Assembly (NCBI GenBank): GCA_017623515.1
Contig: JAGAOV010000011.1
Location: 1-48,049, forward strand
Reading direction: 5' to 3'
DNA length: 48,049 nucleotides
Source of the DNA: Ruminococcus sp.
Lineage (GTDB): Bacteria > Bacillota > Clostridia > Oscillospirales > Ruminococcaceae
Position 1 is the first letter of the stretch. Every line of letters begins with the position of its first letter. Below the pieces are notes generated by a model. The model saw nothing but the letters and a program-made list of their open reading frames with translations, made no database searches and was not told where the DNA came from. Both the position numbers and the translations under genes were made by a program. Below, piece by piece: positions 4,383-46,549 of the stretch.

Positions 4383-4402
4383 GTAAAAACCTATCCTTTC
4401 TG

Positions 4403-4427
4403 ATTATATTGGCGTTTTGTGCAAAAC
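4403..4427 (-). promoter_or_regulatory. fabD -10 element with overlapping palindrome
   Basis: On the minus strand TATAAT (4408-4403) lies 20 nt before the fabD start. No good -35 is seen. The palindrome GTTTTG-TG-CAAAAC (4414-4427) lies just upstream of the -10, where a regulator could act. It could also be chance in AT-rich DNA. Confidence 0.45.
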
Positions 4428-4503
4428 TACCTGATTTGCCATACAGTTTTTGTGCAAGAGAAATGAAACATCACAAAATCGCAGAAAAATGTAGGAGTAG
4501 TCA

Positions 4504-4532
4504 TTGCAAAACTCACCAGAATATTGTATAAT
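4504..4532 (+). promoter_or_regulatory. Promoter of the fab/acc operon
   Basis: TTGCAA (4504-4509) and TATAAT (4527-4532) are separated by 17 bp, a strong sigma-A promoter. Transcription should begin near 4539, about 100 nt before fabH, giving a structured leader. Confidence 0.8.
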
Positions 4533-4551
4533 ATAAGAGTGTTTGATTTTC

Positions 4552-4581
4552 AGCAGAAAAACGCTCCCAGAGCATTCTGCT
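4552..4581 (+). other. Hairpin in the fabH leader
   Basis: AGCAGAA (4552-4558) pairs with TTCTGCT (4575-4581) around an inner stem GCTC/GAGC (4563-4566, 4570-4573). The hairpin lies within the predicted 5' untranslated region and has no following T run, so it is not a terminator. It could stabilise or regulate the message; the role is unknown. Confidence 0.5.
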
Positions 4582-4637
4582 CCTCTAATCATATCACAAA
4601 TTTCAATTAAACACAATAGGAACGGAGGAATTTTTCC

Positions 4638-5648: not shown

Positions 5649-5699
5649 TGATATAGGCATAAACCAATCCACATAGACATGATGAAAGGAAAACGCATT

Positions 5700-6626
5700 A
5701 TGAAAACAAGAATTACAGAGCTGCTTGGCTGTCAGTATCCTCTGCTTCAGGGCGGTATGGCATGGGTTGCGGAAAGCACACTCGCAGCAGCAGTTACAAA
5801 CGCCGGCGGCTGTGGAATCATCGCAGGCGGCAGCGCACCTATTGATTATCTTCGTGAGCAGATAAGAATCTGCAAGTCCAAGGTAGGAGACAAGCCTTTC
5901 GGCGTGAACATCATGCTCATGAGTCCCAATGCGGAAGAGCTTGCGCAGCTTGTTATTGATGAAAAAGTTCCTGTTATTACAACTGGAGCAGGCAATCCCG
6001 GCAAGTACATGGAAGCATGGAAGGCAGCAGGCATCAAGGTTATCCCTGTAGTTCCCTCCGTAGCTCTTGCTAAACGTATGGAAAGAAGCGGCGCAGACGC
6101 AGTTATTGCTGAGGGTACAGAATCCGGCGGTCATATCGGCATGAACACAACAATGTGTCTCGTTCCTCAGGTAGTTGACGCAGTAAGCATTCCTGTTATC
6201 GCAGCAGGCGGCATTGCTGACGGCAGAGGCGTTGCAGCGTCCTTTATGCTGGGTGCAGAGGGCGTTCAGATCGGTACACGTTTCCTTGCTTCTGATGAAT
6301 GCCAGATCCACGAGAACTACAAGAATCTCGTTGTAAAGGCAAAGGACACCGACAACCAGATCACAGGCTTCTATTCAGGCAGCCCGTGCAGAAGCGTAAA
6401 GACAAAGTATACAAAGAAACTTCAGGAGATGGAGAAGAACGCAGCTCCGCCGGAGGATTTCGAGGCTCTTACAGTAGGCTCGCTCCGCAAGGCAGCAGTT
6501 GACGGCAACGTTGACGAGGGCTCATTCCTCTGCGGACTTATTGCAGGTATGGTAAACGACATCCGTCCCTGTAAGGATATTATCGAAGAAATGATGGCAG
6601 ATGCTGAGAAGCTTCTGGGCAGATAA
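5700..6626 (+). CDS. fabK: Enoyl-ACP reductase II (FMN type)
   Basis: A 308-residue TIM-barrel flavoprotein of the nitronate-monooxygenase superfamily that carries out the last reduction of each elongation cycle. Seen: the N-terminal YPLLQGGMAWV motif, AEGTESGGHIG near 138-148 and AAGGIADGRG in the phosphate-binding part. It replaces FabI, which is absent here. I chose the ATG at 5700, preceded by AAAGGAAAA; an in-frame ATG 21 nt upstream has a poorer site. Between fabH and fabG. Confidence 0.95.
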   Translation: MKTRITELLGCQYPLLQGGMAWVAESTLAAAVTNAGGCGIIAGGSAPIDYLREQIRICKSKVGDKPFGVNIMLMSPNAEELAQLVIDEKVPVITTGAGNPGKYMEAWKAAGIKVIPVVPSVALAKRMERSGADAVIAEGTESGGHIGMNTTMCLVPQVVDAVSIPVIAAGGIADGRGVAASFMLGAEGVQIGTRFLASDECQIHENYKNLVVKAKDTDNQITGFYSGSPCRSVKTKYTKKLQEMEKNAAPPEDFEALTVGSLRKAAVDGNVDEGSFLCGLIAGMVNDIRPCKDIIEEMMADAEKLLGR

Positions 6627-6644
6627 GCGAAAGGAGAAAATATT

Positions 6645-7385
6645 ATGGCAGTTGCACTTATCACAGGCGCATCACAGGGTATCGGCGCATGTATCGCAGA
6701 GCGTCTTGCAAAGGACGGCTTTGACGTAGCTATCAACCACTTTCCAAGCGACAGCGACAAGGCTAACGCTGAAAAGGTTGCAGAGGCATGCCGCAGCTAC
6801 GGCGTAAAGGCTGAGCTTTTTGCAGCAAATGTTGCAGATTACGCACAGTGCGAAGCAATGGTAAAGGCAGTTAAGGAACAGCTCGGCAGCATTGACGCTC
6901 TGGTAAATAACGCAGGCATCACAAAGGATGGTCTCCTTCTCCGTATGTCCGAGGAGCAGTACGACGCAGTTATCGCAGTAAACCAGAAGAGCGTTTTCAA
7001 TATGATAAAGCTGGTAGGCGCAGTTATGCTCCGCCAGAAGCACGGCAGCATAGTAAGCCTTGCGTCTGTTGCAGGTCTCTACGGCAATCCCGGTCAGATG
7101 AACTACTCTGCATCTAAGGCAGCTATCGTTGGTATGACAAAGACAGCCGCTAAGGAGCTTGGTTCAAGAGGTATCACTGTAAATGCAGTAGCTCCGGGAT
7201 TCATCAAGACAGCTATGACAGATGCTCTCTCCGATGATGTAAAGAATGCTATGATGAAGCAAGTTGCTATGGGCAGATACGGCACACCGGAGGAGATCGC
7301 AAGCGTGGTTTCATTCCTTTGCTCCTCTGACGCAAGCTATGTTACCGGTCAGACTATCGAGATCTCCGGCGGTCTTATGATGTAA
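6645..7385 (+). CDS. fabG: 3-oxoacyl-ACP reductase
   Basis: A 246-residue short-chain dehydrogenase reducing 3-ketoacyl-ACP with NADPH. The cofactor motif TGASQGIG is at 7-14, NNAG at 88-91, and the catalytic set Asn113, Ser141, Tyr154 and Lys158 (YSASK) is intact. Normal length. It starts 18 nt after the fabK stop with AAAGGAG. Confidence 0.96.
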   Translation: MAVALITGASQGIGACIAERLAKDGFDVAINHFPSDSDKANAEKVAEACRSYGVKAELFAANVADYAQCEAMVKAVKEQLGSIDALVNNAGITKDGLLLRMSEEQYDAVIAVNQKSVFNMIKLVGAVMLRQKHGSIVSLASVAGLYGNPGQMNYSASKAAIVGMTKTAAKELGSRGITVNAVAPGFIKTAMTDALSDDVKNAMMKQVAMGRYGTPEEIASVVSFLCSSDASYVTGQTIEISGGLMM

Positions 7386-7432
7386 TTTTCCCACTTAAAT
7401 CTATTTAAGCAGAAAGGAAATAATAAAAAACT

Positions 7433-8671
7433 ATGAGAAAAGTAGTTATTACAGGTATGGGTACTGTAAATCCTCTGGGCTGCGGAATTGATGCATTCTG
7501 GAAGAACGTACAGGCAGGCAAATGCGGTATTTCAACTATAGATAAGTTCGATCCAACAGAGGTAGGCGTAAGCGTTGCAGGTATTGTACGTGATTTCGAG
7601 CCTACAGATTATTTCGACAAGAAGGACGTTCGTCACATGGAACGCTTCACACAGTTTGCAGTAGCCGCTGCAAAGCAGGCTATCGAGGACTGCGGCAGTG
7701 ATATGAAAGACCTTGATCCTTATCGCTGCGGCGTTATTATCGGCTGCGGTATCGGCGGTCTGGAAATGACTGAGCACGAGCATATCAAGTACATGGAAAA
7801 AGGTCCGAACCGTGTTTCACCTTTCTTCGTGCCTATGATGATCTCCAACATGGCAGCAGGCGAGATCTCCATGAAGACAAACTTCCGTGGCGACAACTTC
7901 GCAACTGTAACAGCATGTGCTTCATCCACACACGCTATTGGCGAAGCATTCCGCAAGATCAAGGACGGCTACCTTGACGCTTGTATCTGCGGCGGTACTG
8001 AGTCTACTGTAACAGAATTCACCATCGGCGCATTCAAGACCATGAAGGCTCTTACCCGTGAGACAGATCCCATGAAGGCTTCAACACCTTTCGACAAGAA
8101 CAGAAGCGGTTTCGTTCTGGGTGAGGGTGCAGGCGTTCTCATGCTTGAGGAATACGAACATGCAAAGGCAAGAGGTGCGCATATCTACTGTGAAATTGCA
8201 GGCTATGGCGCAACATGCGACGCATATCACATGACATCTCCGTCACCGGAATGCGAGGCTGCTGCAAGAGCTATGAAGAATGCCTACGAAGAAGCAGGTC
8301 TTTCCGCTGAAGATGTTGACTATATCAACGCTCACGGCACATCCACAGGTCTCAACGACAAGTACGAGACCCGTGCAGTAAAGATCGCTCTGGGCGAAGA
8401 AAATGCACGTAAGGTAAAGATAAACTCCACAAAGTCTATGACAGGTCATATGCTGGGCGGTACAGGCGCAGTTGAAGCTATTGTATGCGCACTGACTATT
8501 GAGAACAGCTTTGTTCACCAGACTATTGGCTTTACAACACCTGACGAGGAATGCGACCTTGACTACTGCACAGACGCACCGGTGGAAATGCCTGTAAACG
8601 CTGCCCTTTCCAATTCTCTTGGATTTGGCGGTCATAATGCTACACTGTGCTTCAAGAAGCTTGCAGATTAA
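7433..8671 (+). CDS. fabF: 3-oxoacyl-ACP synthase II
   Basis: A 412-residue elongating condensing enzyme. Catalytic Cys162 lies in TACASS, His301 in NAHGTSTG and His339 in MTGHMLGG, the Cys-His-His triad of KAS I/II. KSMTGH and the C-terminal NSLGFGGHN are typical. It follows fabG after 47 nt; its stop is close to the accB ribosome binding site. Confidence 0.97.
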   Translation: MRKVVITGMGTVNPLGCGIDAFWKNVQAGKCGISTIDKFDPTEVGVSVAGIVRDFEPTDYFDKKDVRHMERFTQFAVAAAKQAIEDCGSDMKDLDPYRCGVIIGCGIGGLEMTEHEHIKYMEKGPNRVSPFFVPMMISNMAAGEISMKTNFRGDNFATVTACASSTHAIGEAFRKIKDGYLDACICGGTESTVTEFTIGAFKTMKALTRETDPMKASTPFDKNRSGFVLGEGAGVLMLEEYEHAKARGAHIYCEIAGYGATCDAYHMTSPSPECEAAARAMKNAYEEAGLSAEDVDYINAHGTSTGLNDKYETRAVKIALGEENARKVKINSTKSMTGHMLGGTGAVEAIVCALTIENSFVHQTIGFTTPDEECDLDYCTDAPVEMPVNAALSNSLGFGGHNATLCFKKLAD

Positions 8672-8682
8672 GGAGACAGAAG

Positions 8683-9126
8683 ATGTATAGTATTGAAGAG
8701 ATCAAGGAGCTGGCTAAAACAGTCTCCGAATATAAGCTTGGCAAGATAAAGATCAAGACAGATGACGAGGAACTTGTTATCGAGGGAAAATGCTGTCACA
8801 AGCCTCATCCCATGCCGTCTGTAACTCCGGCTGCACCTGCGGCAATGCCCGCTGCACCGGCAGAAGCACCTGCCGCACCGGCTGAAAAGTCCGGCAATGT
8901 GGTTAAAGCTCCAATTGTAGGTACATTTTATGCAGCAGCTTCACCTGAGGACGCTCCCTATGTAAAGGTAGGCGATACCGTTAAAAAGGGCGATGTGCTG
9001 ATGATAATCGAGTCTATGAAGCTTATGAATGAGGTAACAAGTGATTTTGACGGCGTGGTAGAGGAGATTCTTGTAGCAAACGGTGATGCTGTTGAATATG
9101 ACCAGCCGCTTATGCGTATTGTCTGA
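8683..9126 (+). CDS. accB: Biotin carboxyl carrier protein of acetyl-CoA carboxylase
   Basis: 147 residues. A short helical N-terminus is followed by a Pro/Ala-rich linker (about 42-68) and the biotinyl domain with Lys113 in ESMKLMNE, the biotinylation site. It carries carboxybiotin between AccC and the AccDA transferase. The start at 8683 has AAGGAGA 6 nt ahead, 11 nt after the fabF stop. Confidence 0.96.
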   Translation: MYSIEEIKELAKTVSEYKLGKIKIKTDDEELVIEGKCCHKPHPMPSVTPAAPAAMPAAPAEAPAAPAEKSGNVVKAPIVGTFYAAASPEDAPYVKVGDTVKKGDVLMIIESMKLMNEVTSDFDGVVEEILVANGDAVEYDQPLMRIV

Positions 9127-9143
9127 GACAGGAGGAAAAGATA

Positions 9144-9581
9144 ATGGCAGAGGTTCTGATGAACAGAGAACAGATCATGGAGGTTATTCCTCACAGAGAT
9201 CCGTTCCTGCTGATAGATGAAGTCCTTGAAATGGAGGACGGCAAGCGTGTTGTAGCACGTAAGTATATGAAGGAGGATGACTACTGGTTCAAGGGCCATT
9301 TTCCGGAAAAGCCTGTAACACCGGGCGTTCTCATGGTAGAAATGCTTGCACAGGCAGGCGCAGTATGCATCCTTTCACAGCCTGAATTCAAGGGCAAGAT
9401 CGCTCTTTTTGCAGGTATCGACAAGGTTAAGTTCCGTAAGCAGGTAGTACCGGGCGATGTTCTGGATCTTGAAGTCGAGATCATCAGCCAGAGAGGGCCT
9501 ATCGGCGTTGGAAAGGCTGTAGCTTCTGTTGACGGCAAGAAGGCTGTAACCTGCGAGATTAAGTTTGCTGTAGAAAAGTAA
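9144..9581 (+). CDS. fabZ: 3-hydroxyacyl-ACP dehydratase
   Basis: A 145-residue hot-dog-fold dehydratase. The active site His52 (GHFPEKPVTPGV) and Glu66 (MVEMLAQ) are present, as is the N-terminal IPHRDPFLLID motif. No FabA/FabM-type isomerase is visible in the window. Located between accB and accC as in many clostridia. Confidence 0.96.
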   Translation: MAEVLMNREQIMEVIPHRDPFLLIDEVLEMEDGKRVVARKYMKEDDYWFKGHFPEKPVTPGVLMVEMLAQAGAVCILSQPEFKGKIALFAGIDKVKFRKQVVPGDVLDLEVEIISQRGPIGVGKAVASVDGKKAVTCEIKFAVEK

Positions 9582-9592
9582 GGAATAGACAC

Positions 9593-10951
9593 ATGAAATT
9601 TCAGAAGGTTTTAATAGCAAACAGAGGCGAGATTGCAGTACGTATAATTCGTGCATGCCGTGAGCTTGGTCTCCACAGCGTGACTGTCTATTCAACTGCG
9701 GACAGATCAGCTCTTCATGCAAAGATCGCTGACGAGTCCGTGTGCATTGGCCCTGCTGCCACAAAGGATAGCTACCTCAACATGCAGGCACTCATTGCAG
9801 CATGTAAAAATACAGGTGCAGAAGCCATTCATCCCGGCTTCGGTTTTCTTTCCGAAAGTGCAGAATTTGCCGCACTCTGCAAGGAACATGGTATAACATT
9901 CATAGGCCCGTCTCCTGAATCCATCTCTATGCTGGGCGACAAGGCACGTGCAAAGGAAACGATGAAGGCTGCCGGAGTACCGGTAATTCCGGGTTCTGAA
10001 GGCGTTCTGAAGGACGCTGATGACGCAAAGCGCATAGCTGAGGAAATCGGCTATCCCGTTCTTGTAAAGGCTTCCGCAGGCGGCGGCGGACGTGGTATCC
10101 GCAGAGTTGACAGTCCGGAACAGATGGAACAGCAGCTCACTCTTGCAAAGGAGGAAGCACTGAAATTCTTCGGTAATGACGAGGTTTACCTTGAAAAGCT
10201 GATTGTCGGCCCTCATCACGTTGAAATTCAGATACTTGCGGATTCCTTTGGAAATACAGTGGCTCTCGGTGAGCGTGACTGTAGTATGCAGCGCAGAAAC
10301 CAGAAGGTCATAGAGGAAAGCCCAAGTCCGCTTATGACTGACGATCTCCGTCAGAAAATGCAGGACGCTGCCGTAAAGGCTGCAAAGGCTGCCGGCTACT
10401 GCAACGCAGGAACTATTGAATTTCTCGTAGACCACGAACGCAATTTCTACTTTATGGAAATGAATACACGTATTCAGGTTGAACACCCTGTAACTGAATT
10501 TGTAACAGGCATTGACCTCGTACAGATGCAGCTCCGCATTGCACAGGGCGAGGCTCTTCCTTTTGTACAGGATGATATAAAAATAAGCGGACATGCGATT
10601 GAATGCCGCATTAATGCAGAAAATCCGGAGCTTGATTTCCGTCCCTCTCCGGGTACAATATATTCGATCTATACACCCGGCGGCCCTGGTGTGAGAATCG
10701 ACAGTGCAGTATATCAGGGCTACACCATTCCGCCCTACTACGATTCAATGATAGCGAAGCTTATTGTACATGCACCCTCCAGAAAGGAAGCTATTATGAA
10801 AATGCGCTGCGCACTTGCAGAATTCATAGTTGACGGAATTGATACAAACATTGATTTTCAGCTGAAGCTACTGAAAAACCAGAATTTTGAAGATGGCGAT
10901 TATGACAATGCCTTTCTCACATCATATCTGGAGCAGCTGAAAAAATCCTAA
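9593..10951 (+). CDS. accC: Biotin carboxylase subunit of acetyl-CoA carboxylase
   Basis: A 452-residue ATP-grasp enzyme that carboxylates the biotin on AccB. It shows the N-terminal ANRGEIAVRIIRA motif, HPGFGFLSE, the glycine-rich KASAGGGGRGI ATP loop, EMNTRIQVEHPVTE and the RINAENP segment. Full length. It starts 11 nt after fabZ. Confidence 0.97.
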   Translation: MKFQKVLIANRGEIAVRIIRACRELGLHSVTVYSTADRSALHAKIADESVCIGPAATKDSYLNMQALIAACKNTGAEAIHPGFGFLSESAEFAALCKEHGITFIGPSPESISMLGDKARAKETMKAAGVPVIPGSEGVLKDADDAKRIAEEIGYPVLVKASAGGGGRGIRRVDSPEQMEQQLTLAKEEALKFFGNDEVYLEKLIVGPHHVEIQILADSFGNTVALGERDCSMQRRNQKVIEESPSPLMTDDLRQKMQDAAVKAAKAAGYCNAGTIEFLVDHERNFYFMEMNTRIQVEHPVTEFVTGIDLVQMQLRIAQGEALPFVQDDIKISGHAIECRINAENPELDFRPSPGTIYSIYTPGGPGVRIDSAVYQGYTIPPYYDSMIAKLIVHAPSRKEAIMKMRCALAEFIVDGIDTNIDFQLKLLKNQNFEDGDYDNAFLTSYLEQLKKS

Positions 10952-10996
10952 GGAAGCAGAAAGGCTGCGAAAGCAGCTGTAAATGGTGATACGAAT

Positions 10997-11872
10997 ATGG
11001 CTAATACAAATATGTTAGAAGATTTGTTTAAAACGGTAACGAAACGTTTTAACGGTGATGAGCCTGAGCCGGCAGTGCCGATGTTCAAGTGTCCTCGCTG
11101 CGGCATTTCAACTCCTCAGAAGAAAATGACAGAGCTGGGAAAGGTCTGCCCCAACTGCAAGTATCATGCCAGACTGACAGCTGCTGAAAGAATCGCAATA
11201 ACTGCCGATGCTGATTCCTTTGAGGAATTCTATGCCGATCTTTGTTCCGCAGATCCCCTTGAATTTCCGGGATATGCTGAAAAGGTAACTGAACTTCAGG
11301 CGAAAACAGGTCTTAATGACGCTGTAGTTACAGGCAAATGCACAATTAAAGGCAGCCCAGCTATGCTCCTTGTAATGGATTCACGCTTTATGATGGCATC
11401 CATGGGAAGTGTTGCCGGCGAAAAGATAACAAGAACCTTTGAGTATGCAGCAGAGCATAAGCTCCCTGTAGTAGCGTTTACTGCTTCAGGCGGCGCAAGA
11501 ATGCAGGAGGGTATAATCTCTCTTATGCAGATGGCTAAGACCTCTGCGGCTGTACAGATGCACAGTGAGGCTGGACAGCTGTACATAACAGTCATGACCG
11601 ATCCTACAACAGGCGGTGTAACTGCATCCTTTGCCTCATTAGGTGATATTATCATTGCAGAACCCAAGGTTCTCATCGGATTTGCAGGAAGACGTGTTAT
11701 TGAAGGCACTATCAAGCAGCATCTTCCGGATGACTTCCAGCTTGCTGAATTCCAGCTTGAGCATGGTTATGTTGACATGATAGTTCACCGTAAGAAAATG
11801 CGCAGTACCCTTTCACATTTGCTGAAACTCCATGGTTACGCTGCACAGCCAAAGAAACAGGAGGAGTGCTGA
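10997..11872 (+). CDS. accD: Acetyl-CoA carboxylase carboxyltransferase beta subunit
   Basis: A 291-residue crotonase-fold subunit with an N-terminal zinc ribbon (Cys32, Cys35, Cys51, Cys54). [11 protein letters not shown] and the RRVIEGTI segment identify the beta subunit, which with AccA transfers the carboxyl group to acetyl-CoA. Its stop is separated from the accA ATG by a single base. The Shine-Dalgarno sequence is weak (GGTGAT). Confidence 0.96.
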
Positions 11873-11873
11873 T

Positions 11874-12695
11874 ATGGAAACAATAAACATGAGAACCGCA
11901 TGGGAAAGACAGCTCCTCATACGTGACAAGACAAGACCTACTATAAGAGATTACCTGCCGCTGATCTTTGAGGATTTCTATGAACTCCACGGTGACAGAG
12001 GTGTGGGTGACGATGGTGCGATACTTGGCGGAATAGGCAGACTGAACGGTCAGCCTGTTACCATAATTGCTGAAGTAAAGGGCAGAAATATTGAGGAAAA
12101 TAAGGCTTCAAATTTTGCCATGCCGCATCCTGAGGGATACCGTAAGGCTTTGAGACTTGCAAAGCAGGCGGAGAAATTCCATCGCCCTGTTATCTGCTTT
12201 ATTGATACCCCCGGTGCATTCTGCGGAGTTGAAGCGGAAAAGCGTGGTCAGGGTGAAGCTATTGCACGTAATCTGGCTGAATTCATGTCTCTTAGAACTC
12301 CTGTTGTATCTGTTGTTCTTGGTGAAGGAGGAAGCGGCGGCGCACTTGCCCTCGGTGTTTGTGATGCACTTGCAATGCTGGAAAATGCCCTTTATTCAGT
12401 CATATCTCCCAGAGGGGCAGCCTCTATTCTCTGGAAGGATGCAGCCCGTGAACAGGAGGCATGTGAGGTTCTCCGCATAACAGCTGAGGACATGGTTGAA
12501 TTTGGTGTTGCAGAAGCTATTATTTCTGAGTCGGATACAGGCACATCTAACGATTTGGACAAAATCGCAGAAAATCTGAAAGAATATTTGGTGAAAACGA
12601 TAGCAGAAAAATGCGGAAAAGATATTGACCTTTTGCTGAAAGAAAGGTATACTAAGTTTAGGAAAATCGGTGTGTTCACAGAGACATGCCGATAA
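11874..12695 (+). CDS. accA: Acetyl-CoA carboxylase carboxyltransferase alpha subunit
   Basis: 273 residues. ELHGDRGVGDD, PHPEGYRKALR, IDTPGAFCG and GEGGSGGALAL are alpha-subunit motifs; the last two form the oxyanion pocket. It is shorter at both ends than proteobacterial AccA, as in other Firmicutes. The start at 11874 follows AGGAGTGCT inside the end of accD, suggesting coupling that keeps the subunits equimolar. Confidence 0.96.
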   Translation: METINMRTAWERQLLIRDKTRPTIRDYLPLIFEDFYELHGDRGVGDDGAILGGIGRLNGQPVTIIAEVKGRNIEENKASNFAMPHPEGYRKALRLAKQAEKFHRPVICFIDTPGAFCGVEAEKRGQGEAIARNLAEFMSLRTPVVSVVLGEGGSGGALALGVCDALAMLENALYSVISPRGAASILWKDAAREQEACEVLRITAEDMVEFGVAEAIISESDTGTSNDLDKIAENLKEYLVKTIAEKCGKDIDLLLKERYTKFRKIGVFTETCR

Positions 12696-17670: not shown

Positions 17671-18837
17671 ATGAACATATCAAAGCTTACCGCACTGCTG
17701 CTGAGTACAGCGGCAGGAATAACAATGGTAACAGGCTGTGCAGAAAACAGCGGTTCATCCGGTGAAAAGGATTCCGGAATGTACACCATGCATGGTCTGA
17801 CAACTCAGGAATTTGTAACAGAAATGGGTGCAGGTATCAACCTTGGAAACACCTTTGAATCCTGCGGCGCATGGATAGATTCTGAAAGCGTTACAAACTT
17901 TGAAACAGGCTGGGGAAGTCCTGTTGTAACAAAGGAGCTTATCGAGGGCTACAAGAAAGAAGGCTTCGGCGCACTCCGTATTCCCGTGGCATGGTCTAAC
18001 ATGATGCAGGAAAATTACCAGATACATCCTGATTATCTTGCAAGAGTAAAGGAAGTGGTAGAATGGGCATTGGGTGCAGACCTTGCGGTAATCCTCAATA
18101 TTCACTGGGACAGCGGATGGTGGGAGAATTTTCCGACTGACAAGGAAAACTGCATGGAAAAGTACACCTCTATCTGGACTCAGCTCTGCGACGCTTTCGG
18201 AGAATACGGTGACAAGCTTATGTTTGAATCTCTCAACGAAGAAGCCGGATGGAGCAGTATCTGGGACAGATACTCAGGTACAGAAGAGCAGAAGGCTGAA
18301 TCTTATGCCCTTGTAAATGAGATCAATCAGACATTCGTTGACCTTGTAAGAGCAAGCGGCGGAAATAATGCAGAACGTCATTTGCTTATTGCAGGCTACA
18401 TAACAGACGTTGCCCTCACCTGTGATCCTCTTTATAAAATGCCTGAAGATCCGGCTGGAAAGTGTGCGGTTTCCGTACATTACTACACTCCTGCAACCTA
18501 CTGTATCCTGAAGCAGGACGCAGACTGGGGTAAGGCAAAGAAAGCTTGGGGTTCACCAAGAGACTACGGCGAACTTGAAACGAATATGGATATGCTCTAT
18601 GATACATTTGTAAGCAAGGGTGTACCAGTAATTATTGGTGAGTATGGTGTTGAGACTGCCAACAAGGAGGCAGATAATGTTAAGCTCTTTCTGTCTGCCG
18701 TTTCTACAGAGGCAAGGGAACGGGATATGTGTCCCATGCTCTGGGATATTACTGATGTATTCTATGACAGAACGACATTCCAGATGGTTGAAGAATACTC
18801 AGACCTCAATGAAATGCTTACTGTTCCTGTTGAATAA
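17671..18837 (+). CDS. GH5-family endoglucanase, lipoprotein
   Basis: 388 residues. A signal peptide ends in the lipobox VTGC (Cys23), so the enzyme should be anchored outside the membrane. GAGINLGNTFE near 53-63 is the GH5 (subfamily 4-like) entry motif; the acid/base is Glu190 in ESLNE, the nucleophile Glu324 in IIGEYG, with NIHWD (143-147) and SVHYYTP near 268-274 lining the site. It probably cleaves beta-1,4-glucan, mixed-linkage glucan or xyloglucan. It has no carbohydrate-binding module or dockerin. A strong AGGAGG precedes the ATG; it is monocistronic. Confidence 0.92.
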   Translation: MNISKLTALLLSTAAGITMVTGCAENSGSSGEKDSGMYTMHGLTTQEFVTEMGAGINLGNTFESCGAWIDSESVTNFETGWGSPVVTKELIEGYKKEGFGALRIPVAWSNMMQENYQIHPDYLARVKEVVEWALGADLAVILNIHWDSGWWENFPTDKENCMEKYTSIWTQLCDAFGEYGDKLMFESLNEEAGWSSIWDRYSGTEEQKAESYALVNEINQTFVDLVRASGGNNAERHLLIAGYITDVALTCDPLYKMPEDPAGKCAVSVHYYTPATYCILKQDADWGKAKKAWGSPRDYGELETNMDMLYDTFVSKGVPVIIGEYGVETANKEADNVKLFLSAVSTEARERDMCPMLWDITDVFYDRTTFQMVEEYSDLNEMLTVPVE

Positions 18838-27682: not shown

Positions 27683-28503
27683 TATTCTGATGTCTCCTTT
27701 CTGTACACAGCAAAGTCAGGTGAAAGTCCGAACTGCTTGTAGAAGTCCTCTTTGCTGCCGTTATAAACATTTAAATCAATCGGAATATCATCCGCCCAGA
27801 GTCCCGGAAGATAACCATTAAAGCTGTACTGCCAGAATGCCCAGTCTGCAAGCGGTTCACAGCTTGTATTGCTCATCCATATATCGCAGTCGCTATACGA
27901 GCCGAGGATGTACTTTATATAGAGATTCGATGATGTGTAAATGATAGGTGTTACCCCGTAGTGTTCTTCAAGCTTTTCTATCATTGCATCGAGTATCTCA
28001 TGAACCTTTTCTTTTGAAGGAGGATTCAGAATTACTTCCTCATTATAAAGCTCAAGGTCAAGTACCGGCGGCAGACTGTTTGCCTGCTTAGGAACGATTG
28101 ATATAAAATTTTCTGCCTGAGTTTCTCCGGAGCTTTCAAAGCTGACAAAATGATATGCGCCCACATAAACTCCTGCATTACGTGCATTTGTCCAGTTTTC
28201 CGTAAAGCGTTCATCCTGATGTATGCTGCCCTCTGTAGCCTTTATAAAGGCAAACTGAACGTGGTCATCAGCTCCGAGTACATCCCAGTCTATTTCTCCC
28301 TGATAATAGGAAACATCCACTCCTCTTACAGGATAATCCTCTTCAGATGGAAGCTGCGCTGGAATATCACCGTTTACCGCACGGTAAAAATTCCACACAC
28401 GCACACCTGTATACCCCAAAAATCCCAGCAATGCAAGTACTAAGATAAGTGCGATCCACCTTTTGATATAAGGTGCTGCTATGTTCTGGTTTTTTCTGCT
28501 CAC
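27682..28503 (-). CDS. GH25 lysozyme-like muramidase, membrane-anchored
   Basis: 273 residues. One N-terminal transmembrane helix (about 14-35) is followed by a GH25 domain: GVDVSYYQGEIDW near 60-72, GAYHF, and the catalytic pair in VLDLE near 147-151; the C-terminal DLNVYNGS is typical. It would cleave the glycan strands of peptidoglycan outside the cell. The start codon is GTG, overlapping the GH74 stop (GTGA), with a weak Shine-Dalgarno sequence, so it probably depends on coupling. Confidence 0.9.
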   Translation of the reverse strand: MSRKNQNIAAPYIKRWIALILVLALLGFLGYTGVRVWNFYRAVNGDIPAQLPSEEDYPVRGVDVSYYQGEIDWDVLGADDHVQFAFIKATEGSIHQDERFTENWTNARNAGVYVGAYHFVSFESSGETQAENFISIVPKQANSLPPVLDLELYNEEVILNPPSKEKVHEILDAMIEKLEEHYGVTPIIYTSSNLYIKYILGSYSDCDIWMSNTSCEPLADWAFWQYSFNGYLPGLWADDIPIDLNVYNGSKEDFYKQFGLSPDFAVYRKETSE

Positions 28504-30683
28504 TTTTCAATATCACCCATAATTATTCCTCGTCCGTTTGTGGCAATGTATACTCTTCCGTATACGTTGCTGTCGCCGGTTATATAACCGCTGCTGCCGT
28601 TCAGATTTCCGAACAGATGCTGCTCGTCATTGATGCGTACCCAGCTTTCGCCCTTGTCTCCGGACATATAGATTCCGCTGCCGTTTGTGCCGTCATTTCC
28701 TATAGCGTAAATAACAGGATAACTGTTTTCATCCTTTGCAGCACCAAAGCCTATGGCATTGATTTCGGAGAGAGTCTTGATGTTGCTGAAGGTTTTTCCG
28801 CCGTCCTCTGAAAACATAATAAGAGAACCTGTTGCAAGCCATACATGCCCTTCCTTGCCGGCTATAGTTTTAGGAACTGCGCTGTCTGCAATGAGTGTGC
28901 CTGTTGATTCAAAATTCACGCCGCCGTCATGTGAAACATAAAACAGTCCATCGTATGCCGCATAGAATGTGGACGGATCGACTCTATCCGCAACTATATC
29001 TGCACCAAAGCCTATTCCCTCTGTGTAATACCATGTTTCACCAAAATCAAATGTTACATAAACCTGTCCTGAAGCGTTAGCCGGAGCCCATACAACAGAA
29101 CTGCCGTCTGCCGCTACTGCAATATGTCCGCCCTGTGAGGGTTCAGGAAGAGTTTTCATCTTATTCCATGTGCTGCCGCCGTCCTTAGTATATACAACAG
29201 CATCTCTTTCCTCTGTTGTATACACAGCGATCATAGGATTCAGAAATGCACAGTCAAGATCACATGCCTTGCCGTTCTTCATGAAATGTGCGTCATCGGG
29301 GCATACTGTTACATCCATATGAGCAAAACCGGTAAGGTCGCCCATAATTGAATAAAGCTCCGGTGCGCCCTCCTGTGCAGGAGGAGAAACCATCTTGAAG
29401 ATAGCTGTTTCTTCAAGTCCGTATGCGTCAAATGCAATGGTAACAGGTTCGGTTTCGTACTTTGTCATATTGGTTGTTGAAAAGATCGTTGCGCCTGTGC
29501 CGTACATTATCTCATCTGAATTGAATGGGTTGATATTTATATCGGCGGTCCACCAGCCGGTTTTCGCCTGATTTTCACCTCTGCCCCAGTCAAGCCAGCC
29601 GCATTCGGATGTATCCATCTGGTAATTCATTTCTTTGGTCTTGTCATTGAAAAGACCTGTCCATGTAGAGCCGCCGTCATTGGAGTAATAGATATTATCG
29701 CCCTGATCAGACCACCAGCCAAGAGTTGAAACTACGAGAGTATCCGGCTTCTGTGCGTCAACTGAAACACCGCCGAAGCCGCCGTATCTGCCGTCGTCAA
29801 GGTCAGGTGTAATATCTGTGAATGTGCCGGAGGCAAGCTCGTATTTATAGACCTTGCCGGCTGCGGGAGACATATTCGGACCGCAGTTATCGGAGTAAAC
29901 GATATACATATTTCCGTTTGGCGAAATATCAGCCTGAAGAGGGTACATGCCCTTTTCATTTGCAGGAAGTGCCTCCCATGTGCTGCCGTTGTCGCTGCTC
30001 TTATAGATGCACACGCCGTCAGTCATAGCCACACCTGCGTACATATCCTCAGAATTCGGATCGAACTCAACCCACATGATACCTATATTATTGCTTTCCT
30101 GAGAATAATTACCCTCAACAGGGAAAGATTCGCACTTATTCCAGCTTTTTCCGAAGTCCTCAGACTTCCAGAGACCGGCGTTTCTTGTACCCATCCATAT
30201 TTCCTTGTTGTTATTGGGGTTTACCATAAGGCGTTCGCCTGTGCCACGGCCGGACTGGTTGCCGCCGCATTCAAAGGGAACATCAACCTGTGTCCATGTT
30301 TCGCCGTAGTCATCTGACGCAAACATTGCCCCCGGTGAACCCATATAAGTACCGCCGGCGAAATATACACGCTTAGGCTCTACAGGATCAGCAGCAACGC
30401 TTTCGATGCCGATATAGTTCCAGTTTTCCGCACCCAGAAAATCGGTAAGCGGCTGCCATGTATCATTATCTCTTGAGCTTCTGCGGTAAAGACCGCCTAT
30501 ATCAGTTCGTGCGTAAACAAGTCCTTCTTCACCTGTATTATACACCATACCTGTGACGTATCCGCCGCCGCCCATTGCAACATTGCTCCATATATAATCT
30601 TCAGCGGTTATGCTTCCGCATGCTGTAGTCGTCATAAGCATTGCTGCTCCAAGAACCGCTGCTGTTATCCTTTTAAGTTTCAT
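28500..30683 (-). CDS. GH74-family xyloglucanase, lipoprotein
   Basis: 727 residues. Lipobox TTAC gives Cys22. Two seven-bladed propellers with many sialidase-like S-x-D-x-G-x-T-W repeats (for example ASDDYGETW, SSDNGSTW, SNDGGSTW, SGDKGESW). The expected catalytic Asp pair is Asp61 in YARTDIGGLYR and Asp449 in YSIMGDLTGF. It would cut xyloglucan outside the cell. It has no dockerin or binding module. The ATG at 30683 follows GGAGGAGC. It leads an operon with GH25, manA and glucokinase. Confidence 0.92.
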   Translation of the reverse strand: MKLKRITAAVLGAAMLMTTTACGSITAEDYIWSNVAMGGGGYVTGMVYNTGEEGLVYARTDIGGLYRRSSRDNDTWQPLTDFLGAENWNYIGIESVAADPVEPKRVYFAGGTYMGSPGAMFASDDYGETWTQVDVPFECGGNQSGRGTGERLMVNPNNNKEIWMGTRNAGLWKSEDFGKSWNKCESFPVEGNYSQESNNIGIMWVEFDPNSEDMYAGVAMTDGVCIYKSSDNGSTWEALPANEKGMYPLQADISPNGNMYIVYSDNCGPNMSPAAGKVYKYELASGTFTDITPDLDDGRYGGFGGVSVDAQKPDTLVVSTLGWWSDQGDNIYYSNDGGSTWTGLFNDKTKEMNYQMDTSECGWLDWGRGENQAKTGWWTADININPFNSDEIMYGTGATIFSTTNMTKYETEPVTIAFDAYGLEETAIFKMVSPPAQEGAPELYSIMGDLTGFAHMDVTVCPDDAHFMKNGKACDLDCAFLNPMIAVYTTEERDAVVYTKDGGSTWNKMKTLPEPSQGGHIAVAADGSSVVWAPANASGQVYVTFDFGETWYYTEGIGFGADIVADRVDPSTFYAAYDGLFYVSHDGGVNFESTGTLIADSAVPKTIAGKEGHVWLATGSLIMFSEDGGKTFSNIKTLSEINAIGFGAAKDENSYPVIYAIGNDGTNGSGIYMSGDKGESWVRINDEQHLFGNLNGSSGYITGDSNVYGRVYIATNGRGIIMGDIEK

Positions 30684-30731
30684 TTTGCTCCTCCAGTTGG
30701 CAGAACACACCTGCCCATACTACTATATATA

Positions 30732-38981: not shown

Positions 38982-39025
38982 AAAAAGGATGATGCAGGTG
39001 CTTTCTGCGTCAGCCTTTTAGTTTT
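38982..39025 (+). terminator. Terminator after groEL
   Basis: AAAAGGATGATGCAG pairs with CTGCGTCAGCCTTTT with one bulge, followed by AGTTTTATC. Confidence 0.75.
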
Positions 39026-39140
39026 ATCAAAAAAACATATAAATAAAAGTTTTTTGGTATTATAAGTGAGAGAAAAAGGGAGTTCAGTCGTATAATAAAT
39101 GAAAGGGAAAGCTTATCTTTTTCGGGAAGGAGGACAGCTG

Positions 39141-39695
39141 ATGGATAACGGTGCAAGTAGCTACCGCCGTTTTCTTGAGGGTGATAATGCCGGAATGGCT
39201 GAACTCATCCGTGAATATAAGGATGGACTTGCCTTATACCTTTGCAGCATTACAAGGAATATATGTGAAGCCGAGGAGCTTATGGAAGAAACCTTTGTAA
39301 GGCTGGCGGTAAACAAACCTGAATATACGGGAAAAAGTTCGTTTAAAACGTGGCTCTATACCATCGGGCGTAATTTGGCTATAGATTATGTACGCAGGCG
39401 CAAGTGGATAGCAGATATACCGGTGCATGAATGTTATAAGCTTACAGATGAACAGGATCTTGAAGCTATATACATACGTGAAGAACAGAAGGTTGAGCTG
39501 CGCAGTGCAATGCGTAAGCTGAAGCCTGATTACCAGCAGGTGCTTTGGCTGATATACTTTGAAGAGTTCAGCAACGCAGAAGCCGCTGTTATCATGCATA
39601 AAAGCAAGCGGCAGATAGAGAACCTGCTTTACAGAGCCAAAGTTAAACTGAAAAACGAGCTTGAGAAGGGAGGTTTCCGCTATGAAGGACTATGA
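39141..39695 (+). CDS. ECF-like RNA polymerase sigma factor
   Basis: 184 residues. Region 2 (about 14-80; ITRNICEAEELMEETFVRL and FKTWLYTIGRNLAIDYVRRR) and region 4 (about 115-175; LKPDYQQVLWLIYFEEFSNAEAA then the KSKRQIENLLYRAK recognition helix) are present, with no region 1.1 or 3. I chose the ATG at 39141, with AGGAGG 8 nt ahead, over 39099. Its last 14 bp overlap the start of a membrane-dockerin gene, the usual layout for a sigma factor and its membrane-bound regulator. No clear ECF promoter was found. Confidence 0.88.
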   Translation: MDNGASSYRRFLEGDNAGMAELIREYKDGLALYLCSITRNICEAEELMEETFVRLAVNKPEYTGKSSFKTWLYTIGRNLAIDYVRRRKWIADIPVHECYKLTDEQDLEAIYIREEQKVELRSAMRKLKPDYQQVLWLIYFEEFSNAEAAVIMHKSKRQIENLLYRAKVKLKNELEKGGFRYEGL

Positions 39696-41436
39696 GCAGG
39701 TCACGAGAGATGTTTTTCGCAAGAGAGATATATATCTGGAAAAACGAAGAAAGCGTATTGCTTATATTGAGAAAGGGGTATCTATTATGTCAATAGCTGG
39801 TATTTTAGTAGTATTAGGTCTGTGTACAAGTATGAGCAGCTCAATAGCTCCGGCATTACAGGATGAACCGAATGAAATAGATATAAATTCCGGTATCAGC
39901 ACTGTAACCTCCCAGACAGCACAGACAGAACAGACAGCACGAACAATACAGGACAGCACTGCTGTTCTTACAAGCACTGGTCTTACCAGTAAATCCGCAG
40001 AAAAAACTTCAAAAACCTCCGCTGCCATTACAGCAAATACAGCTTCATCAGCGGAAGCTGCTTTAACGGCTGTGAGAAATGTACTTACTTCAGATGCTGA
40101 AAATACATCAATACTTACATCAGCCGTATCCGGCAGCAGCGAATCAGGAACACTCATTTCATCAGACACATCTGAAACAACAGCATCAACATCAGAGACA
40201 TCAACATCAGCGACAGAAAGCACAAGCAGCACTGAAAGTGTGGATTCCACAGTGGAGGATGACGGCATATTCAGCTTTGCTTATAGACTCTGCGAAAACG
40301 GTTCACGTGAGCAGACTATCTACATCGACAAGGCAGAGCTTGAAAAGGGCGATTACACAATAAATACTGCCATCTACATTGAAACAGAGGATTCTCCGTC
40401 TGGTCTTATTAGTGCGGATGCAGGTTGGTTTGGTTTCGATAATAACGGCGACCGTACAAAATATATCACCTTTGACAACTGCTCTGCATATTCAGAAGAA
40501 AATGACCTTGTAACTACTGATGCAATGTATGCTGCGATTAAGGATAGTGATATTATTGACGGAGTAAATATCAATTCTTCCTTTGCACCATCATGTTTTA
40601 CGACCATACGTGAAAGATCAAGCGGTACTACACTGAAGCACTGGCCTTCAGCTCCGAGATATACTTACAGCACAATAAGTGTATCTAATCCCGGAAACTA
40701 TCCCAACGGCGATTATACGCTCTATTCTGCTGGTCCCTATAAGGTATACTTTACCAGAGACTATGACGGTAAAACCTATTATGTAGACCTTGAATATGAT
40801 GAGAAATCCGGAACTGCAACAGGAGTATGCGAGGAGCTGGAAGCTGGCGCTGCTTATGGTCCGGCTAATGTAAGAATTCACCATTACGACCCTGAAACTC
40901 CGGTAGATGAGCCTATTATAAAATCCTTTACACATGCTTGCCTCATAGATATATCTGCTCCAACAGAAGAATGGTTCGGCGGTGCATCAGATTATCTGCC
41001 ATTTGTAACGTTTGATTCTATTATTGATCAGGATACTCCGGCAGGTACTTATTATGTAGGCTTTACACCGACGAACATAGTTGGTTCTGAAATGAATGCG
41101 ATGTGCTGTAAAACAAGCATGGAGCTGCTTTTAGCCGAAAATGTTGATAAAGAGCATAACGATCAGTCCTACTGGCTGAAGATCGTAGTAGGCGATTCCG
41201 CTGAAACAGAAGATGACACAGCATATGACGTAAACCTTGACGGCACAATAGGCGTTGACGACGCAACAGAGGTTCTCAGCATCTACGCTGAAGCTGCCGC
41301 AGGAACTAATTCTGACATACAGATACAGCAGGCTGCAAATGTAAACGCTGACGTTGACGGTGATGGCGCTGTTACACTGTCCGACGCAACTGCTATTCTC
41401 ACCAGATATGCTGAAAAGGCTTCTGGTCTTGAATAA
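39682..41436 (+). CDS. Transmembrane protein with C-terminal dockerin; putative anti-sigma factor
   Basis: 584 residues. A basic cytosolic N-terminus (1-33, DVFRKRDIYLEKRRKR) is followed by one transmembrane helix (about 35-52), a Ser/Thr-rich linker (about 65-195), beta-rich domains (about 200-510) and a type I-like dockerin at 515-584 with both calcium loops (DVNLDGTIGVDD and DVDGDGAVTLSD). The short cytosolic part next to a sigma factor suggests sigma binding; the dockerin should grip a cohesin outside. Neither role is proven. GGGAGG precedes the ATG; the gene overlaps the sigma gene. Confidence 0.85.
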   Translation: MKDYEQVTRDVFRKRDIYLEKRRKRIAYIEKGVSIMSIAGILVVLGLCTSMSSSIAPALQDEPNEIDINSGISTVTSQTAQTEQTARTIQDSTAVLTSTGLTSKSAEKTSKTSAAITANTASSAEAALTAVRNVLTSDAENTSILTSAVSGSSESGTLISSDTSETTASTSETSTSATESTSSTESVDSTVEDDGIFSFAYRLCENGSREQTIYIDKAELEKGDYTINTAIYIETEDSPSGLISADAGWFGFDNNGDRTKYITFDNCSAYSEENDLVTTDAMYAAIKDSDIIDGVNINSSFAPSCFTTIRERSSGTTLKHWPSAPRYTYSTISVSNPGNYPNGDYTLYSAGPYKVYFTRDYDGKTYYVDLEYDEKSGTATGVCEELEAGAAYGPANVRIHHYDPETPVDEPIIKSFTHACLIDISAPTEEWFGGASDYLPFVTFDSIIDQDTPAGTYYVGFTPTNIVGSEMNAMCCKTSMELLLAENVDKEHNDQSYWLKIVVGDSAETEDDTAYDVNLDGTIGVDDATEVLSIYAEAAAGTNSDIQIQQAANVNADVDGDGAVTLSDATAILTRYAEKASGLE

Positions 41437-41514: not shown

Positions 41515-41556
41515 AATGCAGCTGCACCGTATATAAATGGTGCGGCTGCATTTTTA
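41515..41556 (+). terminator. Terminator of the sigma/dockerin operon
   Basis: TGCAGCTGCACC (41517-41528) pairs with GGTGCGGCTGCA (41539-41550), followed by TTTTTA. The minus-strand lipoprotein ends 14 nt away and may share it. Confidence 0.85.
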
Positions 41557-44140: not shown

Positions 44141-46549
44141 ATGAAATACGGTTTCTTTGACCTCCAGAATAAGGAGTATGTCATCACAAAGCCCGATACT
44201 CCCGCACCATGGTGCAACTACCTTGGTTCTCCGGAGTACGGCGCAATCATCTCTAACAATGCAGGCGGCTACAGCTTCGTTCAGTCCGGCGCAAACGGAA
44301 GAATCGCACGTTACCGCTTCAATTCCAACATGGCTCTTCCGGGACGTTATATCTATATCAGAGATAACGACACCGCTGATTACTGGTCTGCTTCATGGCA
44401 GCCTGTAGGCAAGCCGCTGGATACATACAAGAGTACATGCCGTCATGGTACTGCTTACTCTGTTATCAGTGCTGAATATGCAGGCATTACATCTGATGTT
44501 ACATACTACGTTCCCACAGGCGCAACATACGAGGTATGGCGTGCAGTAGTGAAGAACGATTCCGATAAGCCGAGAAATCTCTCTCTGTTCGGCTTCGTTG
44601 AATTCACAAACGACAACAACTACGAACAGGATCAGGTTAACCTCCAGTACACCCTGTTCATCACACGCACCTCCTTCGAGGGCAACAAGATCCTCCAGCA
44701 CATCAATGAAAACAGCGGCAAGGACGAAACAGGCTCTAACCACAGAGAGCGTTTCTTCGGCATGGTAGGCGCACCTGTTACAGGCTATAACGGTAATCTC
44801 GACAGTTTCATTGGCTCTTACCGTACATATTCTAATCCTATCGCTGTAGAGAACGGCAAGTGCGACGGCGTTATGAACTACAACTCCAATGCATGCGGCG
44901 CACTTCAGACTGAGATCACTCTCCAGCCCGGCGAATCAAGAGAGATCATCTACATCCTCGGTCAGAAGGACAATGCTCAGGCTGACGCTATCCTGAAGTC
45001 CTACGAAGAGGCAGGCAAGGTTGACGCAGAAGTTGCAGAGCTGAAGAACTACTGGCACAATAAGCTTTCCAATTTCTCTGTTGAGACTCCTTCCGAGGAA
45101 TTCAACAACATGATCAACGTATGGAACGCTTACCAGTGCTTTATCACATTCATCTGGTCAAGAGCCGCATCCTTTATCTACTGCGGTCTGAGAAACGGCT
45201 ACGGCTACCGTGATACTGTTCAGGATATTCAGGGTATCATTCACCTTGATCCGGAAATGGCTGCTGAAAAGATTCGTTTCATGCTGTCTGCACAGGTTGA
45301 CAACGGCGGCGGTCTGCCTCTGGTAAAGTTCAACCACAATGCAGGTCACGAGACTTGTCCGGATGAAAACGATGAAAACAGCGTATACGCTAAGGAAACA
45401 GGTCATCCGTCCTATCGTGCAGACGATGCTCTTTGGCTGTTCCCGACAATTTATAAGTATGTAGGCGAAAGCGGCAATACTGCTTTCTATGACGAGGTTA
45501 TTGTTTACGCAAACGGCGGAGAGGATACTGTTTATAACCATCTGAAGAACGCTATCCGCTTTTCTATGGAAAGACTGGGCGATCACAAGATGCCTGCTGG
45601 TCTCCACGCAGACTGGAACGACTGCCTGAGACTTGGCAAGAAGGGCGAATCTACATTCGTAGCATTCCAGCTCTACTATGCAATGTCCATGATCAAGGAA
45701 CTGGCTGAGAAGCGTAATGATACTGATTATGTGGCATATATCGAAAAGGTTCAGGCAGAACTTGGCGAAACACTTGAAAAGTGCTGGGATGAGGACAGAT
45801 TCATCCGTGGTATCCGTGAGGATGGTGTTATCGTTGGTGCTAAGAATGATCCTGAGGCTAATATGTGGCTGAATCCTCAGAGCTGGAGCGTTATCTCCGG
45901 TTTCGCATCCAAGGAGCAGGCTGACAAGGCTATGCAGTCCGTTGCTGATATTCTGGATACACCTTACGGTGCAAAGCTCCTTGAGCCGCCCTACAGAGAA
46001 CACTACTTTGACGGTGCGCTTATGCACATCTTCAATCCGGATACAAAGGAAAACGGCGGTATCTTCTCACAGTCACAGGGCTGGCTGATCCTTGCAGAAT
46101 CTCTGCTGGGCCACGGTGATGCTGCATTCCGTTACTTTATGGAAAGTTCACCTGCTGCAATGAACGATAAGGCTGAAATTCGTGTTCTTGAGCCGTATGT
46201 ACACGGTCAGTTCACTGAGTCTACTGCATCTCCGTATGCCGGACGCAGCCACGTACACTGGCTGACAGGTACAGCGTCTACAGTAATGGTAGGCTGCACA
46301 GAGGGTATCTGCGGTATGAGACCTGACGCTGATGGTCTGGTAATCAGTCCGTCTATCCCTGCGAAGTGGGATGGCTTCAAGATGACAAAGAAGTTCCGTG
46401 GCAAGCTGCTGAACATCAATGTTAAGAACCCGAACCATGTACAGAGCGGCGTTGCATCCATGACTGTAAATGGAAAGGCTGTAGAGGGCAATAAGCTCTG
46501 TGTATGCTGTCTGGAGGATGTAAACGAGGTTGAGATCGTTCTCGGCTGA
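44141..46549 (+). CDS. cbp: Cellobiose phosphorylase (GH94)
   Basis: 802 residues, no signal peptide, so cytosolic. An N-terminal beta-sandwich (about 1-290) is followed by an alpha/alpha barrel and a C-terminal beta domain. The catalytic Asp491 is in GLHADWNDCL; RNGYGYRDTVQD and GGLPLVKFNHNAGHE line the substrate and phosphate sites. It splits cellobiose with phosphate into glucose-1-phosphate and glucose, saving ATP. It is a single-gene unit with AAAGGAG before the ATG. Codon use is strongly biased (GGC, AAG, ATC), as in the chaperone and fab genes, suggesting high expression. Confidence 0.95.
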   Translation: MKYGFFDLQNKEYVITKPDTPAPWCNYLGSPEYGAIISNNAGGYSFVQSGANGRIARYRFNSNMALPGRYIYIRDNDTADYWSASWQPVGKPLDTYKSTCRHGTAYSVISAEYAGITSDVTYYVPTGATYEVWRAVVKNDSDKPRNLSLFGFVEFTNDNNYEQDQVNLQYTLFITRTSFEGNKILQHINENSGKDETGSNHRERFFGMVGAPVTGYNGNLDSFIGSYRTYSNPIAVENGKCDGVMNYNSNACGALQTEITLQPGESREIIYILGQKDNAQADAILKSYEEAGKVDAEVAELKNYWHNKLSNFSVETPSEEFNNMINVWNAYQCFITFIWSRAASFIYCGLRNGYGYRDTVQDIQGIIHLDPEMAAEKIRFMLSAQVDNGGGLPLVKFNHNAGHETCPDENDENSVYAKETGHPSYRADDALWLFPTIYKYVGESGNTAFYDEVIVYANGGEDTVYNHLKNAIRFSMERLGDHKMPAGLHADWNDCLRLGKKGESTFVAFQLYYAMSMIKELAEKRNDTDYVAYIEKVQAELGETLEKCWDEDRFIRGIREDGVIVGAKNDPEANMWLNPQSWSVISGFASKEQADKAMQSVADILDTPYGAKLLEPPYREHYFDGALMHIFNPDTKENGGIFSQSQGWLILAESLLGHGDAAFRYFMESSPAAMNDKAEIRVLEPYVHGQFTESTASPYAGRSHVHWLTGTASTVMVGCTEGICGMRPDADGLVISPSIPAKWDGFKMTKKFRGKLLNINVKNPNHVQSGVASMTVNGKAVEGNKLCVCCLEDVNEVEIVLG

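Follow-up and report, generated by a model that had tools for sequence, protein, structure and literature searches.

An extracytoplasmic function sigma factor and a dockerin-bearing predicted membrane anti-sigma factor from a large ruminococcal family, with a possible link to the cellulosome

The 48,049-nucleotide stretch of Ruminococcus sp. DNA analyzed here (contig JAGAOV010000011.1; hereafter the window) carries on its forward strand, where all features described below also lie, a gene for an extracytoplasmic function (ECF) sigma factor (39141..39695). It overlaps by 14 bp (39682..39695, from open reading frame coordinates) a gene for a 584-amino acid (aa) single-pass membrane protein that ends in a dockerin and is predicted to be an anti-sigma factor (39682..41436, beginning with the ATG at 39682; open reading frame, family alignment and hydropathy). 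These coordinates and the overlap agree with a first-pass annotation of the locus, and the overlap recurs in relatives. Analysis of the 184-aa sigma protein revealed Pfam Sigma70_r2 (8.3e-15) and Sigma70_r4_2 (1.3e-13), both above cut-off, and a TIGR02937 sigma70-ECF score of 90.9 bits (cut-off 42.9). The nearest solved structure by sequence was an ECF sigma factor, SigW (5wuq_A, 1.1e-13). The protein is small and has regions 2 and 4 without region 3, as an ECF sigma factor should, in line with the initial description of the gene as ECF-like. A Shine-Dalgarno sequence, AAGGAGG, precedes the sigma gene (39127..39133). That of the membrane gene, AAGGGAGGT (39666..39674), lies inside the last part of the sigma gene, an arrangement suggestive of coupled translation. 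Terminator-like hairpins flank the pair on both sides, one after groEL (38990..39012) and one of 16 pairs downstream (41515..41552); a consensus scan of the region found 8 such hairpins versus 2.2 expected.

The membrane protein begins with a basic cytosolic end (residues 1-33, 39682..39780) of net charge +5. This is followed by one membrane helix (about residues 34-52, 39781..39837; about 32-52 by hydropathy), a linker with 44% Ser+Thr (residues 53-190, 39838..40251), an ectodomain with relatives in secreted dockerin proteins (residues 191-509, 40252..41208; sequence searches) and a C-terminal dockerin with two calcium loops (41224..41433; Pfam, own-genome profile and PDB match). The short basic end, single helix and Ser/Thr linker of the first-pass annotation were thus all recovered. 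Topology was judged by hydropathy, which places the dockerin outside the cell; a dockerin inside would have contradicted the proposed sensor role. The ectodomain may consist of extracellular beta domains. It gave no significant PDB match (best, connectase at 0.005; a cohesin-like segment was weak, E 0.02-0.03), and none of the 3 Pfam families that the whole protein matched at E ≤1 was the RsgI domain.

The dockerin was next compared with known dockerins and with those of the host genome. By itself it was weak in Pfam (E 0.0025, 18.4 bits; cut-off 22.9) and reached 23.1 bits together with its frame neighbours. Against a hidden Markov model (HMM) built from 29 dockerins of its own genome it scored 4.5e-14, and on visual inspection its two calcium loops seem intact (DVNLDGTIGVDD, DVDGDGAVTLSD). 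The sequence, Pfam and the own-genome HMM therefore all recover the two calcium-binding repeats that define a dockerin, and its earlier description as intact seems to hold. The closest dockerin structure was that of ScaH (8ajy_B), a weak match at 8.3e-6 that calmodulins equalled or bettered. Among related sensors at our numbered loci (L), the dockerin of L205 was likewise closest among dockerins to ScaH, and those of L187 and L172 were nearest a Group I dockerin (5m2o_B; 7e-18 and 1e-12). According to excerpts of PMC5301203, group-4 dockerins such as that of ScaH are bound at the cell surface by the cohesin of ScaE.

The host assembly (1.0 Mb, 57% complete) yielded 43 dockerin matches at E 0.001 and two cohesin matches, one above and one below cut-off. 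The first lies within a 961-aa protein combining leucine-rich repeats (LRR), a cohesin and a dockerin. The second is a 306-aa protein with a signal peptide, a Thr-rich linker and a sortase-type C terminus (Gram_pos_anchor 0.007, below cut-off), whose best PDB match was a cohesin (1.1e-4). A genome devoid of cohesins would have spoken against the role first proposed for the dockerin; since cohesin-like proteins are encoded there, potential partners for it seem to exist. This second, single-cohesin protein (L100:4434-5354, G000:C15) adjoins a secreted dockerin protein of 751 aa that contains long Thr/Ser repeats (5452-7707) and is a candidate ScaE-like anchor.

To place the pair in a wider setting, genomes were searched with the sigma alignment. 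Clear members were found in 5/16 genus genomes (E 1e-58 or better; next best 5e-23) and in 71/396 sampled genomes of the bacterial family (E 1e-25), where at most 8 candidates were scored per genome and copy numbers are lower bounds. A further scan kept at least 80 named loci. Six Ruminococcus flavefaciens isolates carried 59 sigma copies at E 1e-25: 21 in FD-1 and 7, 8, 10, 8 and 5 in the others. These gave 58 pairs, as L293 lies at a contig end without a partner; the second L254 sigma is covered by L290. The pair thus occurs both in relatives within the genus and in R. flavefaciens, which answers a search that the first-pass annotation had proposed. No relative of the membrane protein was confirmed in viral contigs. 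In 111 distinct related pairs the genes overlapped by 14 bp in 100 cases, 11 in 5, 17 in 3, -4 in 2 and 26 in 1; in the 58 R. flavefaciens pairs the overlap was 14 bp in 45, 11 in 6 and 17 in 4, with 26, 8 and -18 once each. Recurrence of the 14-bp overlap in 100 of 111 pairs is not chance, and conservation of both the overlap and the protein across relatives rules out a chance reading frame for the membrane gene.

Alignment of 107 partners revealed one N-terminal hydrophobic helix in every protein (107/107) and a cytosolic end with a median net charge of +5 (lowest 0). In this alignment the window protein replaces L033 and L065 is added; L128, L148 and L166 (cut at the DNA end) and L082 and L110 (start unclear) are omitted. 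A second membrane helix rose above threshold in 0/107, a threshold that also missed internal signal-peptide-like stretches. Residues 1-33 were the best-conserved part, with a mean of 2.17 bits compared with 1.77 for the helix, 0.63-0.92 for the linker and ectodomain and 1.27 for the columns of the window dockerin. Pfam listed 16 families at E ≤0.01 for these partners, the RsgI domain not among them; Dockerin_1 was found in 18 proteins, LRR_5 in 3 and an M23 peptidase in 1, and most ectodomains had no match. A protein encoded with a sigma factor, single-pass by hydropathy and with an N-terminal cytosolic end has the gene order and topology of an anti-sigma factor. From these features and the conservation of the cytosolic end we infer that the partner is one.

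We also examined the regions 5' of the sigma genes. These share a conserved element of the form TGAGAg, 16-17 nt, CGTCTAAtA, whose second half precedes the start codon by about 48 nt (median). It was present with ≤2 mismatches of 13 in 74/111 upstream regions versus 24/2220 Markov-shuffled sequences; as the consensus itself derives from these upstream regions, the test is not independent. In the window, the consensus of the 111 regions identifies TGAGAG - 16 nt - CGTATAA (39067..39095), 45 nt from the sigma ATG, as a predicted autoregulatory ECF promoter, and the sigma factor is probably autoregulated. Strict matches in the six R. flavefaciens genomes numbered 21, compared with 7 in a reversed control, and 3 of the 21 precede sigma genes. 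Of the other 18 sites, 8 have a dockerin gene as the first gene downstream, including L324, whose start is 266 nt away. If about 5% of genes are assumed as background, the binomial probability is 1e-6, and at 6.5% it is 8e-6; each of these genomes has at least 96-148 dockerin matches (150 candidates scored per genome). Other first genes recur between isolates: an acyltransferase-like gene (L302/L304, 74% identical), a radical SAM-like gene (L327/L333, 83%), an NAD-binding-like gene (L331/L332, 95%) and, distantly, a gene for a large membrane protein (L329/L330, 23%). These names are readings of the sequences.

Dockerin genes among the likely sigma targets would also be expected if the partner were no anti-sigma factor and instead a membrane-anchored cellulosomal protein that shares the sigma operon merely as a target. 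Consistent with that explanation, the cytosolic end has no anti-sigma family in the Pfam lists and no match among solved structures. We nevertheless consider it improbable, as the cytosolic end has been kept across 107 partners while the outside parts were exchanged. In 20 FD-1 pairs, moreover, the last 80 residues of the sigma factor covary with the cytosolic end of its partner (Mantel r 0.29, p 0.0045), though shared descent alone would give the same; the corresponding values for sigma factor and ectodomain were r 0.14 and p 0.044.

A dockerin on a sigma regulator had at first been regarded as unusual, but such sensors recur: a C-terminal dockerin was found on 14/58 R. flavefaciens sensors and on 5/8 genus sensors (G009:C146 and G009:C27, for which no partner was obtained, are left out). 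L063, a paralogue in the genome of the window, combines an LRR ectodomain with a dockerin whose calcium loops both appear intact; L069 and the near-identical L065 have the same arrangement. Dockerins were also found in the following gene. Downstream sequence of at least 600 nt was available for 127 sensors, of which 80 had a next gene (same strand, -30 to +250 nt); 66 of these 80 sensors were dockerin-less, and the next gene encoded a dockerin protein in 35. The control comprised 41 loci flanked by 3 kb on each side, some of whose hosts may lack cellulosomes: 14 had a dockerin downstream, 6 had one upstream of the sigma gene, 2 had one within the sensor and 23 had none. The sensor ectodomain was homologous to the next product in 4/80 loci, with up to 73% identity. 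In G011 (L066:7073-9928, G011:C13) the sensor has no dockerin, and the gene after it encodes a secreted, dockerin-carrying relative of the sensor ectodomain. In FD-1, the L275 and L179 ectodomains share a domain with the next secreted dockerin protein (73% and 64% identity), as if sensor and neighbour recognised the same ligand.

Outside the genus, 24 of 25 dockerin sensors (the exception being L121) have an internal ATG in frame, after which a simple custom rule identifies a signal-peptide-like stretch; L176 and L271, below the dockerin threshold, were counted by their C termini. The Shine-Dalgarno match at these 24 starts was at least 6 in 17, 4 in 3 and absent in 4. Across all internal ATGs, a strong Shine-Dalgarno sequence was present at 17/34 signal-peptide starts versus 8/828 others (p 1e-20), the 34 including 8 in dockerin-less proteins that lack one. 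R. flavefaciens sensors with such starts include L250/L172, L261, L274, L279 and L297. One gene in this species may thus yield both a membrane and a secreted protein. No internal signal-peptide-like start was found in the window sensor or in its four dockerin-bearing genus relatives. The dockerin part therefore looks like a third gene fused to the sensor gene, its own start mostly kept in R. flavefaciens and absent in the window. As the two proteins are encoded separately elsewhere, their fusion suggests that sensor and dockerin protein act together.

The internal stretches would yield a secreted form, and this bears on whether the window helix could itself be a cleaved signal peptide, in which case ectodomain and dockerin would be released and join the cellulosome like any ordinary secreted dockerin protein. 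An A-P-A at residues 56-58, a few residues past the helix, could be a cleavage site for signal peptidase. Few members of the family have A-x-A where the helix ends, however: 5/157 partners, compared with 12/157 in a control stretch. The window protein is outside the 5 by that rule, its A-P-A sitting further out. The conserved cytosolic end of about 31-33 residues also exceeds the usual signal peptide n-region, which is shorter. We regard release by cleavage as very improbable.

A more serious alternative, although still an unlikely one, is that the dockerin is a mere leftover of gene fusion, with the ectodomain sensing a plant or host glycan or protein and cohesin binding playing no part in signalling. 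Since the ectodomain is related to secreted dockerin proteins, it and the dockerin could have come together. Most sensors lack a dockerin (44/58 in R. flavefaciens), and its subtype varies, being Group I in L187 and L172 and nearest ScaH in the window and L205. A leftover sits less well with calcium loops that look intact in both the window and L063, with dockerins on ectodomains as different as the LRR type (L063, L069, L065), the window type and the R. flavefaciens type, and with separate dockerin genes at the same place in the operon.

Taken together, these data favor, with a probability of roughly 60%, an ECF sigma factor with a membrane anti-sigma factor from a large ruminococcal family, to which in the window a third, dockerin component has been fused that would link the sensor to the cellulosome. 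The basic 33-residue cytosolic end would hold the sigma factor at the membrane, and a change in the extracellular part would free it, by proteolysis or release. Pairs of this family would often cooperate with a third component, a cellulosomal dockerin protein from the gene immediately downstream. That gene, in the window, would have been fused to the sensor without a signal peptide of its own, leaving an ectodomain that is anchored in the membrane and could also dock onto a scaffoldin. The dockerin, as the presumed link between anti-sigma factor and cellulosome, would place the sensor in the complex or couple the two, so that transcription would follow the state of the complex or of its substrate. 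Of the interpretation in the first-pass annotation, the sigma factor encoded with a membrane regulator and the predicted outside location of the dockerin are retained; the dockerin itself now seems to stem from a third operon gene that became fused to the sensor gene.

Several observations weigh against this explanation. The missing anti-sigma relative of the cytosolic end and the A-P-A past the helix, both given above, are among them. The excess of downstream over upstream dockerins within loci is modest (14 versus 6 of 41, with none in 23). Two of the six R. flavefaciens genomes had zero strict promoter sites despite carrying 7 and 8 sigma factors, and in the five genus genomes with the pair 5/6 strict sites precede sigma genes, so no regulon was seen there. 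The genome of the window had 3 strict sites, namely 2 autopromoters and one in contig C1, versus 4 in the reversed control, and we therefore claim no regulon in it. On the side of the binding partners, hmmscan of both cohesin-like proteins listed no cohesin family, contrary to the genome and PDB searches. In the excerpted results of PMC5301203, the majority of dockerins whose parent proteins contain LRRs did not bind any cohesin tested, which bears on the LRR-type paralogue L063.

We also considered a broader reading, which is speculative and which we rather doubt: that ruminococci read cellulosome assembly itself through the three-part unit. Sigma activity would then be set by whether cohesins are free or filled, or by tension acting on the complex once docked. 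The internal ribosome-binding site and signal peptide in R. flavefaciens would give a tethered and a free dockerin protein from one gene, and the soluble form would compete with or reset the sensor.

Elsewhere in the window lie an apparent run of fatty-acid synthesis genes (2620-12695, from reading the open reading frames), a GH5 cellulase gene (17671-18837), a gene for a BNR-repeat protein (28500-30710) and a GH94 phosphorylase gene (44141-46549). No dockerin match was found at E 0.001 in the GH5, BNR-repeat or GH94 products, which are thus predicted carbohydrate enzymes outside the cellulosome.

No description of this sigma factor/dockerin sensor system was found in the portions of the open-licence literature covered, on dockerins, cellulosomes and Ruminococcus sigma/anti-sigma factors; a prior description elsewhere is possible. 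Regulation of the Ruminococcus cellulosome was yet to be understood in 2014 (PMC4081043, in part), and the excerpted text of PMC11557425 (2024) confines dedicated RsgI-type sensing to Acetivibrio-type producers, the only ones to use a dedicated RsgI suite. The host of the window pair is a gut bacterium related to Ruminococcus, and its relatives carry many such pairs. With 59 sigma factors, a promoter-like element and dockerin genes among the putative targets, the R. flavefaciens members are candidates for control of the very large Ruminococcus cellulosome, which their sensors could physically join. The question of cellulosome regulation thereby becomes directly testable in a species important for fibre digestion in ruminants.

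The arrangement resembles several known systems. Like SigI/RsgI of Clostridium (Acetivibrio) thermocellum and relatives, it comprises a multi-copy sigma factor and a membrane partner with exchanged ectodomains in cellulosome producers. SigI activates its own and cellulosomal genes (excerpts of PMC6056542 and PMC3413522), as the ruminococcal sigma factor may do to judge from its promoter sites. SigI lacks region 4 and has SigI-C in its place (PMC6056542, in part), and the C-terminal sensing domains of A. cellulolyticus RsgI-like proteins in the excerpted PMC3413522 are CBM3, CBM42, PA14, CBM35, peptidase or unknown, with no dockerin. The sigma factor described here has region 4 where SigI has SigI-C, and no RsgI domain was found in its partner. 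Domain content thus rules out membership of SigI/RsgI, and the parallel drawn by the first-pass annotation holds as a working principle only. In FecI-FecR-FecA, a sigma factor, a single-pass anti-sigma factor and a third surface protein are encoded in one operon. The ruminococcal units may be three-part in a similar way, the dockerin protein being next in 35/66 and fused to the sensor in others; they involve no outer membrane or transporter, and their third part would be a dockerin protein that can be fused to the anti-sigma factor. CnrY, YhdL and RsiV are ECF anti-sigma factors with a short cytosolic end and one membrane helix. The window protein shares this plan without a sequence match having been found, and differs in an ectodomain that bears a dockerin. 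Finally, the R. flavefaciens group-4 dockerin proteins, such as ScaH, have the dockerin closest to that of the window, although the match is weak, whereas the parent protein in the window is a predicted membrane protein encoded beside a sigma factor gene.

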